Source: Tetragonia tetragonoides
Lineage: Eukaryota; Streptophyta; Magnoliopsida; Caryophyllales; Aizoaceae
Assembly: GCA_038025085.1 (NCBI GenBank)
Contig: CM076149.1
Location: forward strand, 30,293,001-30,357,000
Length of the DNA: 64,000 nucleotides
Direction: 5' to 3'
Part shown: piece by piece, positions 4,127 to 21,442 of the stretch
Position numbering within the stretch: position 1 is the stretch's first letter
How the letters are laid out: every line of letters begins with the position of its first letter
Program-made: the position numbers and the translations under genes
The notes under the pieces: generated by a model
Database searches by the model: none
What the model was told of the DNA's origin: nothing
The model's input: the letters and a program-made list of their open reading frames with translations, nothing else

Positions 4127-5523
4127 TGAAGAGTGACTCCAATTTCTCGCGTTTTATGACTTGAGAACAAGGTAGGGAACAGTGTTATGAATGTTGTTGC
4201 TACGCAGTGAACTGAACAGAAAGTAAAAGACTGAATGTAAATAACACAAGGATTTTTTCACGTGGAAAACCTCCTAGGCCTAATAGGAGTAAAAATCACG
4301 ACCCAGTTACTTGGGATTTTGTCACACTACTTTTCTTATAACGAGAGCCAAAACAGGATACATTACTATACCATAACAACACCACACACCGTTACTGATG
4401 CGTTGCCAATCTCTCCAAGTCACACATTGACCTGAGAGAAACTCTAAGCTTGTCACTAAGCTAGAGCTATTACAAATTACCAGATTGTTTGTCTTATAAC
4501 ACGGTTCAACACTAAGCAAAATAAGCCCACAGAAAACCTATTATGAAATGACCAATCTAAGCAAGACTCAAACTAATTAGGACAAGGAACACGGTTCCAG
4601 GTTGTTCTTGTGAGCACAGGACGTATCAGGTTTGGACGATTTAACGCTTTGCACAAATGATTCTGATCTCAATAATGCACGCAAAGTTTAACCCTACAAC
4701 TGAGCCTATCAGGCGCCTTATGTAGGCAGGCCTAGAAGCTCGGTCCAATTAGGTTAAATCTCTTCAAAATATAAAAGATAAGATTTTCTAAAAGATAGGA
4801 TAGAGTTTAAATAAAGATAAAAGACATTTCCTAAACTCAACTCATGTGATAAAAACCGTCCAAATACTTTAACAGAAAATCTTGGCCAACTAGCAAGTGA
4901 TTTATCAGAATATAATCTCTAAAAGATAATTAGAAATATTCCAAAAAATAATTCACTTACCTAAACAATATAAACTTGGCCATTAAGTAAACTACTTTTC
5001 CAAGATAATATCTTGTCAAAATAAAATACTTTTCTGTTTCAAACACGATTTTGCAATTATTTCTTCAGAAGAATATTTGTGTGAAGATCTAAAAATATTC
5101 GTAGAAATAATAAATTCAGATATTATGCATACTCGTCCAGATACACAGCTTAGAAGGAACAGGGTCCAACTCGTTGTTCCCCTTTGGTTCCTTCGAGCTT
5201 CAGTGCTGGTCATAGAGAATAGGGTTCACAAAAATGCTCCCCTGTACTCATAGACGCATGCACTCAGCCCTACAACCTTGTTCCCTTGTCATGGTCAATT
5301 TAGACTCTTGCTAACTAGTCAAGCATAGTACATAAAGACTAATGACAAATGCACTTAACTACATTAAATTGTCTTCATGTCTTGTGAGGATCCAAGCATC
5401 TTCATGAGCAATCATGCTTTGAGCATTATAACTTCTTGCATCCTTAAGTAACCTGCCATCATAGTTAGTTTACACAAAGATAAAGACACTTCGCTTGTTA
5501 TCATCAAAACCAGGAACCCAACA
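4127..5523 (-). repeat. 5' LTR of the truncated Sirevirus-type copy
   Basis: It matches the LTRs at 5710-7149 and 15446-21437 over nearly its full length (shared blocks include the CTCGCG stretch near 4147, the CACGTGGAAAACCTCC block near 4260 and the GGAACCCAACA end). About 40 bp is deleted at the PBS-proximal end. In sense (minus) orientation the LTR begins TGTTGGGTTCC at 5523. It lies next to PBS and gag, so it is the 5' LTR. Only 186 bp separates it from the next element, which has the same orientation. Confidence 0.85.
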
Positions 5524-5704
5524 TTAATGCAAATGTAGCACCTTTTGTTCAAAATGTAACAATGTCTCACGATAAGACCGTCTTATATGAGTTTTTGTGC
5601 CTTTTATTAAGGGACACTATATTATTGAGCAAGTCTTATGTTAGACCAATTTTTAAAAAAGTGGGATTATTATTAAGAAATGTAGGAGTCACTTATTTTG
5701 AGTT
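5524..5704. other. Spacer between two Sirevirus-type copies
   Basis: AT-rich non-coding DNA between the LTR end at 5523 and the GTGAC target duplication at 5705. I see no ORF or RNA gene. A segment near 5560-5600 (TCTCACGATAAGACCGTCTTA) resembles common plant repeat debris; a related inverted stretch lies in the intron near 29100. Confidence 0.5.
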
Positions 5705-5709
5705 GTGAC

Positions 5710-7149
5710 TCAAAAGTGCCTAAGTTACTCTAGAGGGGGGTGAATAGAGTGACTCCAATTTCTCGCGTTTTGCAACTTGAGAAGAGGGTAGAGAACAGCG
5801 TTATGGACGTTGTTCCTATACAGCAGACTAAGACAGAATATAAAAGAGGAATGTAAATAAAACAAGGCTTTCTTCACGTGGAAAACCTCCTAGGCTCAAT
5901 AGGAGTAAAAACCACGACCCAATTACTTGGGATTTTGTCACGCTACTTATCTTATAACTAGAGCCAAAATCCAGGATACAACACAATACCCTAACACCAC
6001 CACACACCGTTACTAATGCGTTGATTTGAGAGATGCTCTACACTCGTTACTGAGTTAGAGACTTTACAAATAACCAGATTGTTTATCCTATTACACGCTT
6101 CAACACTAAGAAATATAAGACCACAAAAACTTATTATGCAATGACCAATCTAAGCAAAGACTCAAACTGACCAGGACAGGGAACAGGGTTCAAGGTTGTT
6201 CTTTGTGAGTACTGGACGTATCTGGTTTGGACGAGTAAACGCTTTGCACAACTGATTCTGAGTTCAATGATGCACGCAAAGCTTAACCCTACAACTGAGC
6301 CTATCAGGCACCTTATATAGGCAGGCCCAAAACGAGCTCAGTCAGTTAGGTTAAATCTCTTCAAAATATTAATGATAAGATTTACCAAAAGATAGGATAG
6401 AGTTTAAGTAAAGATGAAAGACCTTTCCTTAACTCAACCTATGAGATAAAATCCGTCCAAATTCATTAATAGAAAATCTCGGCCAGCTAGCAAAGGATTT
6501 ATCAGAATATAATCTCTAAAAGATAATTAGAAATATTCCAGAAGATAATTCACTTGCTTAACAATATATATTTGGCCATTAAGTAAAATACTTTTTCCAA
6601 GATAATATCTTTTCAAAATAAAATACTTTTCTGTTAAAACTACGATTTTGCAATATTCATTTTTCCAAAATAAAATATATCTCTTCAGAAGAATATTTGT
6701 GTGAATATCTAAAAAGATAATACACAAAATATTCGTAGAAATAATAAATATGAATTTATGCAAACTCGTCCAGATACACAGCTTAGAAGAAACAGGGTCC
6801 AACACGTTGTTCCCTTTTGGTTCCTTCACGCTGTAGTGCTGGTCATAGAGAACGGGGTTCACAAGAATGCTCCCCTGTACTCATGCACTCAGTCCTACAA
6901 CCTTGTTCCCTTGTCATGATCAATTCAGACTCTTGCTAACTAGTTAAGCATAGTACATAAAGACTAATGATAAATGCACTTAACTACATTACATTGTCTT
7001 CATGTCTTGTTAGGATCCAAGCATCTTCATGAGAAATCATGCTTTGAGCATTATACCTTCTTGCATCCTTAAGTCAACCTGCCATTATAGTTAGTTCACA
7101 CATAGATAAGGACACTTTGTTTGTTATCATCAAAACCAGGAACCCAACA
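5710..7149 (-). repeat. 3' LTR, uninterrupted
   Basis: About 1.44 kb. In sense orientation it runs from TGTTGGGTTCC (7149) to GGCACTTTTGA (5710). The start obeys the TG rule; the end is TGA rather than CA. The 5' LTR ends the same way directly before the PBS, so this is not a local mutation. A sense-strand TATA box CCTATATAAGG lies at 6311-6321. Copies of the element-wide GGAACAGGGTYC motif are at 6180-6191 and 6789-6800. Confidence 0.88.
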
Positions 7150-19700: not shown

Positions 19701-19890
19701 TGCTACATTAAGAGTCACAACAATTGTCCCCAAATGAAAAACAAACAAAACCCTGAACAGATAGTTTAAGTGAACAACAGGTACAAGTAAGAAAGACTAA
19801 CCAAATTAAATCAATGAAAACACACATTCAACTAATCATATCACCAAAACTGGATTTTTTTAAGGAAAAGCCCAAACAGACTAGGACAAA

Positions 19891-20400
19891 TCATCGATCA
19901 AATATTACGGAACAGAAAAATAAAATGGACTTGATTCCAGCAAAGCTGTGAACCAAATAATCGTTTTGAACCAGTAAATAAAATGAACCACAATGATATT
20001 TCGAAGTTGGGTTAGAGAGAAAGAACCTTGAAAGTTTAACAAGTGTGAGCTTCGTGTCTGGAGAGTACCCGACCACCTCGTCACCTCCTTTCTCTGATCG
20101 CCTCCCACCGCGACCATCCAGGCGGAAATCCCACAATTCCTCACCTAGAAATTTGATGATGATGTCGTCTCGCAGATCTAGAAAAGTAAATTCAAATGGA
20201 ATCACAAAATGTTGAAATTTCAGGAATGAATGGGAAGTGCAATTGGGTGTAATATAGTGATAATTAACTAATTTAGGAACTACTGTAGATCGAGGTTGGG
20301 AGAGATCTGAACGAGGGGAAGGGGGTTGTGAGGAGAGAGAAACGGTGGTGAATGCTTAACAGTTACGCTCAAATTTAGGAAGAGGGATTCTATTTTAAAA
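19891..20400 (-). other. Gene-start-like island inside the CACTA element
   Basis: Minus strand: a CT-rich leader-like stretch (20395-20280), then a candidate exon after TTTTCTAG near 20182 reading LRDDIIIKFLGEELW, with locally higher GC than the surroundings. It may be the 5' end of the same captured transcript whose end lies near 16613. No homology is recognised. Confidence 0.25.
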
Positions 20401-21442
20401 AACTAAAACTTTAGGAAGAGGGAACTTATGGCACACGATTTTATTAATTTGAGCCCGCCTCCTGAAAGGACAATTTGTCACGCACAAAACCGTGGAAAAG
20501 GTCCGCACTTATTTAAAAGCGTGGAGAACCTCGGTATATTTTTCCACGTAAAAGCGTGGAGAAAAAAGTGTCTACAACTAGCATATTTGTTGTAGTGATA
20601 GGCAGGCCCAAAACGAGCTCAGTCAGTTAGGTTAAATCTCTTCAAAATATTAATGATAAGATTTACCAAAAGATAAGATAGAGTTTAAGTAAAGATCAAA
20701 GACATTTCCTTAACTCAACCTATGAGATAAAATCCGTACAAATTCATTAACAGAAAATCTCGGCCAGCTAGCAAGTGATTTATCAGAATATAATCTCTAT
20801 AAGATAATTAGAAATATTCCAGAAGATAATTCACTTGCTTAACAATATATATTTGGCCATTAAGTAAAATACTTTTTCCAAGATAATATCTTTTCAAAAT
20901 AATATACTTTTCTGTTAAAAATACGATTTTGCAATATTCATCTTTCCAAAATAAAATATATCTCTTCAGAAGAATATTTGTGTGAATATCTAAAAAATAA
21001 TACACAAAATATTCGTAGAATTAATAAATATGAATTTATGCAAACTCGTCCAGATACACAGCTTAGAAGGAATAGGGTCCAACACGTTGTTCCCCTTTGG
21101 TTCCTTCACGCTGTACTGCTGGTCATAGAGAACAGGGTTCACAAGAATGCTCCCCTGTACTCATGGACGCATGCACTCAGTCCTACAACCTTGTTCCCTT
21201 GTCATGATCAATTCAGACTCTTGCTAACAAGTCAAGCATAGTACATAAAGACTAATCACAAATGCACTTAAGTACAGTACATTGTCTTCATGTCTTGTTA
21301 GAATCCAAGCATCTTCATGAGCAATCATGCTTTGAGCATTATACCTTCTTGCATCCTTAAGTTAACCTGCCATCATAGTTAGTTCACACATAGATAAGGA
21401 CACTTTGTTTGTTATCATCAAAATCAGGAACCCAACAGTGAC

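Follow-up and report, generated by a model that had tools for sequence, protein, structure and literature searches.

Short words repeated within one transposon family are known from the subterminal repeats of CACTA elements, presumed binding sites of an element protein. In the VANDAL MULEs, which are DNA transposons, VANC motifs are described, in the parts of the reports dealing with them, as lying in non-coding tandem repeats and having a demonstrated binding protein (PMC5735166, PMC10398659), and the everted repeats of the auxin response factors (ARFs) as two outward-facing half-sites with a fixed spacing and an invariable TGTC core, bound by a dimer (PMC10690724). The closest known kind to the motif considered here is the Sirevirus 'repeated motif' (RM). 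In the sections devoted to it, the RM is symmetric, present in at least eight copies, and concentrated within the LTR on the upstream side of the TATA box; in elements with an env-like gene it is also found in the linker upstream of that gene (Bousios et al., 2010; PMC2829016). The same sections give RMs a CGG-CCG core forming CpG islands, Tnd-1 being an exception, place them in the LTR, the linker and the start of ENV, and leave their function open.

The window, i.e., the whole stretch of 64,000 nucleotides of Tetragonia tetragonoides DNA that was analysed, contains a minus-strand Sirevirus-type element at 5710-21437, flanked by the TSD GTGAC (5705-5709 and 21438-21442) and carrying a CACTA insertion in one LTR (Table 1). 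It has the Ty1/copia gag-pol order, an extra ORF after RT, and TATCAGAGC after the 5' LTR, as found in Sireviruses. Its polypurine tract, AGGGGGAA followed by TT/TG, is present in six same-strand copies; three are in the linker (7152, 7577, 8181), and the remaining ones are found at 9251, 11277 and 12052. The Sirevirus tract is given as AGGGGGAG with an AT/TG attachment site and several linker copies, and a terminal A is reported for two elements in the text on this feature (PMC2829016); in the window element the AT of the attachment site is replaced. Compared with three neighbouring families of the same genome, the integrase is 61-65% identical and the longest RT pieces 72-75%. Accessory ORF 2 had one protein match (Dionaea, 31%), no solved structure was matched by its sequence, and structure prediction gave no usable fold; with a mean pLDDT of 46.4 the accessory protein model is too poor to support DNA binding.

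The original prediction was that a 12-bp word is dispersed through this family at 19 positions, in both orientations and different reading frames, and the dispersion is confirmed. Eighteen of the 19 positions match GGAACARGGTYC at 0-2 mismatches, with 9582 corrected to 9583, while 12573 needs three. They are not 19 independent sites, since some are LTR duplicates (6180 equals 15939, and 6789 equals 21069) and the older related LTR repeats another (5156 equals 6789). When family members are compared there are about 24 distinct positions, 14 antisense and 10 sense, and the coding copies use all three reading frames. Over the whole window GGAACARGGTYC is found at 28 sites with at most one mismatch, against 0.95 expected (none of 100 shuffles gets to 28), and at 55 sites with at most two, against 13.84 expected. 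An unbiased ranking of the 12-mers in 5700-16090 puts GGAACAGGGTCC first. At the one-mismatch threshold the internal region holds 14 sites in 8292 bp (an order-1 Markov null gives 0.12 on average and at most 2 among 200), the 3' LTR four in 1439 bp (counted over 5712-7150, within 2 bp of the span in Table 1), the older relative three in 2576 bp, and positions 21440-64000 two in 42561 bp; neither the 4519 bp of nested CACTA nor positions 1-2900 hold any. The flanks of the copies are largely unrelated, and a small-RNA signal, which had also been proposed, is judged unlikely for such a 12-bp word.

The word is not always a simple 12-mer, as first described. A larger unit, the 25-bp convergent dyad RGAACA-N13-TGTTCY, takes in several of the LTR sites, one site in RT and some in a relative; its two half-sites point toward each other with a constant distance between them, which is a new observation. 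An inverted half-site lies exactly 18 bp downstream of 7 out of 31 sites, while offsets other than 16-20 average 0.9. Pairs also recur at other spacings (16, 26 and 30 bp, and in tandem at 12, 13, 21, 32 and 44 bp) because the copies share positions. Genome-wide, in counts dominated by the copies of a single lineage, the dyad is found at 2051 places against 334 for the reversed sequence and exact GGAACAGGGTCC at 880 against 42, while the N15 spacing gives 367 against 384. Four of the five LTR sites are convergent dyads, or nearly so, or degraded forms of them. The TATA box is at 6313, and the three LTR sites at 6789-6898 lie upstream of it, 250-360 bp into the LTR, as RMs do; the other two lie downstream.

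Table 1. Features of the element, its neighbours and the motif sites. F1 is the lineage of the window element and F2 a gag-only relative; fractions are copies having the site.
Feature	Position	Strand	Remarks
Older relative, remnant	2960..5535	-	LTR 84% identical; sites 4586, 5156, 5216 (2 mismatches), 5273
3' LTR	5710..7149	-	92.1% (632 bp) and 95.6% (841 bp) against 5' LTR pieces
LTR dyad AGAACA..TGTTCC, 18-bp spacing	5792..5816	.	3' of TATA; 5' LTR copy 15541-15552; 12-mer at 5805 in 7/13 F1, 7/8 F2
LTR dyad, 16-bp spacing	6180..6202	.	3' of TATA; copy at 15939; 12-mer 6180-6191 in 14/16 F1, 9/9 F2
LTR dyad, 18-bp spacing	6789..6813	.	Left half degraded in window copy; 15/15 F1, 8/8 F2 among copies covering the site
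LTR site, right half-site degraded	6849..6873	.	Intact 18-bp dyad in F2
LTR site, F1 only	6898..6909	-	12/14 F1, 0/7 F2
Polypurine tract AGGGGGAA	7152..7159	-	Adjoins 3' LTR
Site just within internal region	7289..7300	+	Common to F1 (9/10) and F2 (4/4)
Linker site	7909..7920	+	2 mismatches in window copy; 2/7 F1
Site overlapping polypurine-tract copy	8173..8184	-	2 mismatches in window copy; 5/9 F1
Accessory ORF 2	8229..8897	-	pI 9.1; weak Transposase_32 match PF20167, E 3.7e-8, under curated cut-off
Accessory ORF 2 site	8504..8515	+	2 mismatches in window copy; 6/9 F1
Accessory ORF 2 exact site	8548..8559	+	10/10 F1
Accessory ORF 1	8894..9718	-	Lysine-rich, pI 10.1; no Pfam match
Accessory ORF 1 site	9162..9173	-	2 mismatches in window copy; 6/10 F1
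Accessory ORF 1 site	9243..9254	-	3/10 F1
Exact site between RT and accessory ORFs	10071..10082	+	10/11 F1
Site between RT and accessory ORFs	10293..10304	+	7/10 F1, 0/3 F2
Reverse transcriptase end/RNase H piece	10604..11236	-	PF07727, E 3.2e-10
RT-region site	11294..11305	+	1 mismatch attained in only 1/11 F1
RT-coding dyad GGAACAAGGT-N5-ACCTTGTTCC, 18-bp spacing	11702..11726	.	Peptide ERNKVWHLVP
Site in ORF after integrase	11973..11984	+	11/11 F1
Site in ORF after integrase	12089..12100	-	2/11 F1
Protease-like/pre-integrase/integrase ORF piece	12263..13510	-	PF22936, PF13976, PF00665, PF25597
Site private to window copy	12280..12291	-	Missing from 15 aligned F1 rows, most reading TACAGGGTCC
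Integrase site	12547..12558	+	2 mismatches in window copy; 8/11 F1
Integrase site	12793..12804	+	7/10 F1; conserved peptide WTLFL largely dictates letters
Integrase-ORF site	13243..13254	-	7/8 F1
Gag C-terminal part with zinc knuckle	13530..14141	-	zf-CCHC_3, E 0.0026, under curated cut-off
Site upstream of zinc knuckle	14043..14054	-	3/4 F1, 0/5 F2
Gag ORF	14559..15449	-	PF14223, E 3.7e-31
Primer binding site TATCAGAGC	15432..15440	-	After 5' LTR; 9-mer identical to the Sirevirus PBS as given in PMC2829016
5' LTR	15446..21437	-	Split by CACTA insertion, 16079-20597
Nested CACTA	16079-20597		Ends CACTACAACAAA...TTTGTTGTAGTG; 3-bp TSD ATA

Inside the element many of the copies are single 12-mers rather than dyads. 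When seven ORF pieces of the window were shuffled among synonymous codons the mean was 0.68 sites and the maximum 4 of 200, against eight observed. The four F1 relatives that were picked by their RT, not by the motif, have 8, 7, 5 and 4 sites where shuffling gives 0.84, 0.60, 0.18 and 0.23, and for each of them 0 of 200 shuffles attain the observed number. Many of the sites also recur in other family members. Neither of the two outcomes named beforehand as counting against the original prediction was thus seen, and its claim of a family-wide dispersion that goes beyond both protein conservation by itself and LTR duplication is supported. Recurrence is patchy for several internal sites, e.g., those at 11294 and 12089, and 12280 is found in the window copy alone. 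The RT dyad is written by codon choice; its arms are perfect in the window copy but in only 4 of 15 rows of relatives (one of the four RT-selected relatives), and in the sister families the dyad is absent from this site even though the peptides are near-identical. Motif codons of the integrase replace conserved residues in 4 of 12 cases, compared with 29 of 187 other codons, which is no significant excess (P 0.12).

The motif is spread through its own family, but it is not general to Sireviruses. In the four RT-selected relatives 8-15 sites are found per 8.5 kb, at positions shared by the family, while three further Sirevirus families in this genome have 0-2 sites in 8.5 kb, i.e., no enrichment, and two other copia loci have none. 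Per 10 kb the density is 14.4 in the four RT-selected F1 loci, 13.4 in 13 F1 loci selected by the motif, 10.1 in six motif-selected F2 loci, 1.2 in four loci of Sirevirus families A/B/C and 0 in the two other copia loci. F2 encodes gag with a zinc knuckle, and neither pol nor an accessory ORF was found in it; it has most LTR sites in common with F1, while its internal sites are at other positions. Constraint between existing copies is weak. The mean minority-base fraction is 0.048 in sites and 0.063 nearby (P 0.019, rising to 0.053 without five sites prone to selection bias), and for the four RT-selected copies alone the two values are 0.050 and 0.053, the site being the lower in 6 of 10 cases.

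The motif resembles the RM, which the original prediction did not name, in being family-specific and present in many copies per element (about 24 positions). Its symmetry is partial, only part of the sites being dyads, and its placement agrees in part: three of the five LTR sites have the RM position relative to TATA, and 10071 and 10293 lie upstream of the accessory ORFs, but 7289 and 7909 downstream of them. The CGG-CCG core described for RMs is lacking (the LTR has only two CGG and two CCG, CpG o/e 0.52), a 13-bp gap separates the half-sites, two of the LTR copies are on the downstream side of TATA, and the motif extends to the integrase, RT, gag and accessory regions, whereas RMs are described from the LTR, linker and ENV start. 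VANC motifs, as far as they are described in the sources above, share with it a short word repeated over one transposon family and different in sister families; here the word is dispersed, rather than in tandem repeats, and partly coding, the carrier is an LTR retrotransposon, and the binder is putative. The repeats of CACTA elements, of which one example is nested at 16079-20597, lie near the element ends, while this motif is found throughout the element. A fixed half-site spacing is shared with the ARF everted repeats, but the half-site TGTTCY lacks the TGTC core reported for ARF sites.

On balance we favour, with modest confidence and from sequence comparisons, the reading that this family carries its own array of putative binding sites, in double-stranded DNA, for a sequence-specific, probably dimeric protein. 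The array would be the F1 family's version of the RM, dispersed into coding DNA, with single sites and one dyad added across the linker, accessory, RT, integrase and gag regions through small local changes, partly synonymous. Sites that occur in both orientations fit recognition as double-stranded DNA better than they fit a packaging signal in RNA; this part of the original proposal stands, while its analogy with VANC, whose motifs are non-coding, is only partial. Because F2 has this word elsewhere in its internal region, the factor would be one that acts in trans, supplied by the host or by autonomous elements. The likely function of the motif would be to drive LTR transcription, and the internal copies might maintain open chromatin along the entire element. 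A bolder version, in which one dimeric factor recognises an array written into coding sequence largely by codon choice, and the element and its gag-only relative, sharing the factor in trans, escape silencing or are activated as a unit, is rather doubtful.

Two rivals are narrower forms of the favoured reading and differ in who supplies the factor. Host transcription-factor sites only, with LTR dyads as ordinary promoter elements, internal copies as enhancers for the same factor, and neither an element-encoded partner nor anti-silencing, are a tentative possibility. The LTR copies on both sides of TATA, three of them at the RM position, would fit, as would the array retained by F2 without detected pol or accessory ORF, and a PLACE comparison of RMs, as reported, mainly gave sites of stress-related factors (PMC2829016); by itself, however, this reading accounts neither for F1 copies in coding regions far from the LTR nor for the non-enriched sister families in the same host. 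A VANC-like system, in which a protein from gag or an accessory ORF would bind the array and lift silencing over the element and its gag-only relative, is unlikely. A motif specific to one family and scattered along the full length of the element, internal positions differing between F1 and F2, and two basic accessory ORFs would be expected of such a system, but the tandem-repeat setting of VANC motifs, the accessory ORF not found in F2, and the structurally unmatched accessory ORF 2 argue against it.

That the dyads act as packaging, dimerisation or hairpin signals in genomic RNA is very improbable. Some have complementary arms, and 11702-11726 could form a stem-loop (arms of 10 bp, loop of 5 nt), but the sites are split 14 to 10 between the orientations, most are single 12-mers, inner arm positions are often unpaired, and no Rfam match was found within 2900-21500. 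Hardly credible is a functionless coincidence of conserved peptides, biased codons and LTR duplication. It would suit the peptides at some coding sites (WTLFL at 12793, NKVWHLVP at 11702), the private site and the weak copy-to-copy conservation, but it is contradicted by the synonymous shuffles in the window and in all four relatives, by sister families that encode near-identical RT-site peptides and have neither the dyad nor enrichment, and by a genome-wide excess specific to one spacing.

A family with an RM-like word outside the LTR, in coding DNA, with a fixed dyad spacing and retained by a pol-less relative, offers a concrete 25-bp probe for the function of such motifs, and for a binder search it has built-in negative controls in its three sister families and in the N15 spacing. 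If the binder is element-encoded, sequence-specific self-recognition would occur in retrotransposons as well as in DNA transposons; if it is a host factor, a host pathway would shape the coding sequence of its parasite. Should the array activate or anti-silence the element as a unit, this would be retrotransposon self-recognition, VANC-like in purpose but with a different anatomy.

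The Sirevirus-type element in which the 12-bp motif is dispersed encodes gag, a zinc-knuckle piece, integrase, and RT/RNase H, with two accessory ORFs downstream of RT. Its PBS is TATCAGAGC, its LTR pieces show 92.1% and 95.6% identity, and AGGGGGAA polypurine tracts are repeated within it. Extra sense-strand tracts of this kind are found at 7577, 8181, 9251, 11277, and 12052, the last three within ORF pieces or between pol domains, and motif sites overlap those at 8181 and 9251. The canonical Sirevirus PPT-junction pattern occurs at 112 places, compared to 19 for the reversed control. 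With pI values of 10.1 and 9.1, the two accessory proteins are both basic. The predicted structure of accessory ORF 2 has a mean pLDDT of 46.4 and thus gives no usable fold, and its sequence matched nothing in PDB up to E 0.1. When viral contigs were searched with the integrase as query four stretches fitted a pattern, none of which was confirmed as a relative.

Features of the window and locations of the fixed-spacing dyads
Feature	Position	Strand	Remarks
Sirevirus-type Ty1/copia element (carrier)	5710-21437	minus	5-bp duplication GTGAC on both sides
CACTA-type insertion	16079-20597		splits the 5' LTR of the carrier; CACTACAACAAA ends; 3-bp duplication ATA; own repeated word around TTTCCACGCTTT close to both ends
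Older relative of the carrier	2960-5535		
Dyads with 18-bp spacing, LTR	5792, 6789, 6849		differing sequence
Dyads with 18-bp spacing, F2 linker and gag regions			differing sequence
Dyad with 18-bp spacing, RT codons	11702-11726		differing sequence
MULE unit	22085-28122		inverted repeats at its borders, around 22271-22543 and 27774-28122
MULE-type transposase	25651-27657		
Plant-mobile-domain ORF	22812-24134	opposite to the transposase	
ORF without Pfam match	24969-25634		contains a DGNCGFR stretch, which we take to resemble an OTU-type protease

Eighteen of the 19 motif positions in the original prediction were confirmed at ≤2 mismatches, while 12573 has no match at this threshold. Ranking without prior choice placed GGAACAGGGTCC highest among the 12-mers of 5700-16090. 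At ≤1 mismatch, the threshold used for a site unless otherwise stated, GGAACARGGTYC is found 28 times in the 64 kb, compared to 0.95 expected, and the internal region alone holds 14 sites against a null mean of 0.12. Two sites lie in 21440-64000, and none in the nested CACTA or in positions 1-2900. The claim that protein conservation does not explain the coding copies was borne out by synonymous codon shuffling of seven ORF pieces, where eight sites were observed against a mean of 0.68 and a maximum of 4 in 200 shuffles, although some codon biases fall outside the Markov and shuffle nulls. A purine precedes the motif at every one of 32 distinct sites (8 from F2, the gag-only relatives, and 24 from F1, the window-type elements, these being hand-picked from window scans at ≤1 and ≤2 mismatches and from family mapping). 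The remaining flanking positions hold at most 0.31 bit each, and weak flanks argue against a spread of the motif as longer duplicated blocks. Both strands are used, with 14 F1 sites in one orientation and 10 in the other. EM motif discovery drifted into purine-rich tracts, and its result was not used.

In the 752.8-Mb assembly, whose elements mark it as probably that of a plant, the exact 12-mer occurs at 880 places and the reversed word at 42, while the numbers for GGAACARGGTYC are 2117 and 355. Twenty loci (L009-L028), picked for the exact 12-mer among the first 100 of the 880 places and from two contigs only, fall mostly into F1 and F2; motif-selection bias is absent only from L029-L036 and from two controls, L037-L038. 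L014, in which no gag was found, was placed in F2 by its LTR. L014 and L025 also display other repeats with dense words of their own, AACCGACGTTGT 12 times and TAGGCGTCGGTT 13 times in 9.9 kb (≤1 mismatch). In the four F1 loci selected by RT (L033-L036) there are 15, 14, 12, and 8 sites per 8.5 kb, each of the 49 at a position that also bears a site in the window or in another F1 copy. The coding sites of these loci number 8, 7, 5, and 4 against shuffle means of 0.84, 0.60, 0.18, and 0.23, and in each locus none of 200 shuffles matched the observed count.

Through a Silene latifolia protein (P0101) with a 51% match to the window integrase, three other Sirevirus families were reached in the genome of the window: A, represented by L029, B, represented by L030, and C, with two copies (L031 and L032) that are 96% identical. 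Identity to the window element is 61-65% for the integrase pieces of these families and 72-75% for their longest RT pieces. These four loci contain 0, 0, 2, and 2 sites, respectively, and one site in each family C copy falls on the codons for WTLFL, where protein conservation suffices; window site 12793 likewise reflects this peptide. No excess over shuffles was found in the coding parts of the three families, and the two other copia loci contain no sites. Per 10 kb, the density is 14.4 in RT-selected and 13.4 in motif-selected F1 loci, 1.2 in families A, B, and C, 0 in other copia, and 10.1 in F2, a value biased upward because F2 is seen only in motif-selected loci. The three families have repeated words of their own, but these are clustered, unlike the dispersed F1 motif. 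In family A the palindrome CTGTGGGCCACAG (≤2 mismatches) is found four times in the linker (L029:6736-6928), as a clustered Sirevirus repeated motif (RM) lacking the CGG-CCG core. Families B and C have short repeats mainly towards the 5' side of the loci.

F2 has gag and zinc-knuckle pieces with amino-acid identities of 46-55%. In the three F2 loci with LTRs on both sides (L011, L012, and L016) RT, integrase, and accessory ORF were not found by tblastn. The gag frame of L012 is open over 541 residues. These three, and also L015 and L024, represent a gag-only, TR-GAG-like Sirevirus relative that is apparently non-autonomous. F1 and F2 have the LTR sites 5805, 6180, 6789, and 6849 and the junction site 7289 in common. 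F2 lacks 6898, 10293, and 14043 wherever alignable, and has a gag site of its own in four of five copies. Four to six F2 sites remain unmapped in each of L011, L012, L014, and L016, and none in L015 and L024. The mapping between F1 and F2 copies thus indicates that many sites are kept while internal positions differ.

The sites were predicted to belong to the whole family, and many F1 positions are indeed common to the copies: 6789 is found in 15 of 15, 8548 in 10 of 10, 11973 in 11 of 11, and 10071 in 10 of 11, these being counts of copies, not of independent sites, that take in a fragment locus with an LTR piece only (L013). Others are patchy (11294 in 1/11, 12089 in 2/11, 9243 in 3/10), and 6849, 8173, 8504, 9162, and 12547 are family sites degraded in the window copy. 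Site columns vary less than neighbouring columns (0.048 vs 0.063, P 0.019), but this weakens to P 0.035 when the two positions most liable to bias from locus choice are dropped, and to 0.053 when five are. With only the four RT-selected loci the gap is small (0.050 vs 0.053), variation being lower in 6 of 10 sites. Site 12280 looked like a case of motif codons taking precedence over conserved residues of integrase, but it is private to the window copy, and a conserved-column test showed no significant excess of such replacements at motif codons over other integrase codons. Distribution, codon choice, and spacing suggest selection on the motif, to which copy-to-copy conservation adds weakly.

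The spacing concerns facing half-sites, RGAACA-N13-TGTTCY. Among convergent GAACA..TGTTC pairs, 34 of 74 in F1 (window element and 17 loci) and 22 of 50 in F2 are 18 bp apart, start to start. Other peaks are at 16 (13), 30 (12), and 26 (9) bp in F1, and at 30 (8), 17 (5), 19, and 42 (4 each) bp in F2. Divergent pairs number 25 and 15, and tandem pairs 77 and 33, in F1 and F2, respectively. Families A, B, and C together with the copia loci have three convergent pairs, none at 18 bp, 15 divergent, and 31 tandem, while the rest of the window has one convergent pair, of another spacing. Since copies share positions such counts are not independent, and distinct sites are what counts: 7 of 31 have an inverted half-site (≤1 mismatch) exactly 18 bp away, two of them being halves of one dyad, compared to 0.9 on average for offsets other than 16-20. 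Of the two spacings counted genome-wide, N13 gives 2051 matches and its reversed control 334; for N15 the numbers are 367 and 384. In the RT dyad of the window the codons for ERNKVWHLVP form the arms GGAACAAGGT and ACCTTGTTCC. The same perfect arms are found in 4 of 15 relatives' rows, including one of the four RT-selected loci, the others differing by at least one base. Families A, B, and C encode the near-identical peptide ER[NS][KQ]VWHL[VE]P by other codons and lack the dyad. In a post hoc test under the codon usage of the element, the chance is 0.011 for the spaced hexamers and 0.0025 for perfect arms.

That both orientations occur, that facing half-sites keep a fixed spacing, and that the sites share a conserved sequence and not just complementary arms speak for a candidate dimeric factor that would recognise the motif or dyad as double-stranded DNA. 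No RNA family matched 2900-21500 at the gathering threshold. As the motif is present in a relative without detectable pol, the candidate factor is favoured to act in trans. The effect of the predicted binding might be on transcription, anti-silencing, or something else.

Heat-shock elements have their GAA and TTC units in 5-bp phase; those of the motif are out of phase, and such elements were excluded. Palindromes in maize Sirevirus LTRs were reportedly described in 2016. ARF binding sites were excluded as well, TGTC being invariable in them according to passages of PMC10690724. Twelve openly licensed papers contain at least one of six motif spellings; judged by titles and abstract openings, none deals with retrotransposons. 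The RM, as outlined in parts of Bousios et al. (2010; PMC2829016), is symmetric and lies in the LTR upstream of TATA and in the linker upstream of the env-like gene. Compared to this outline, the LTR cluster 6898, 6849, and 6789 similarly starts some 250 bp inside the LTR, on the upstream side of TATA (6313), and further copies lie upstream of the env-like ORF. However, 6180 and 5805 are downstream of TATA, no CGG-CCG core is present, and with copies also in integrase, RT, and gag regions the motif exceeds the description. The original prediction compared the motif with those bound by VANC, the anti-silencing protein of VANDAL MULEs, which passages of PMC5735166 and PMC10398659 place within non-coding tandem repeats; the present motif is dispersed and partly coding. 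Since position and symmetry partly fit the RM and VANC motifs sit elsewhere, the motif is classed as an RM variant, one that by analogy might serve as a VANC-type platform.
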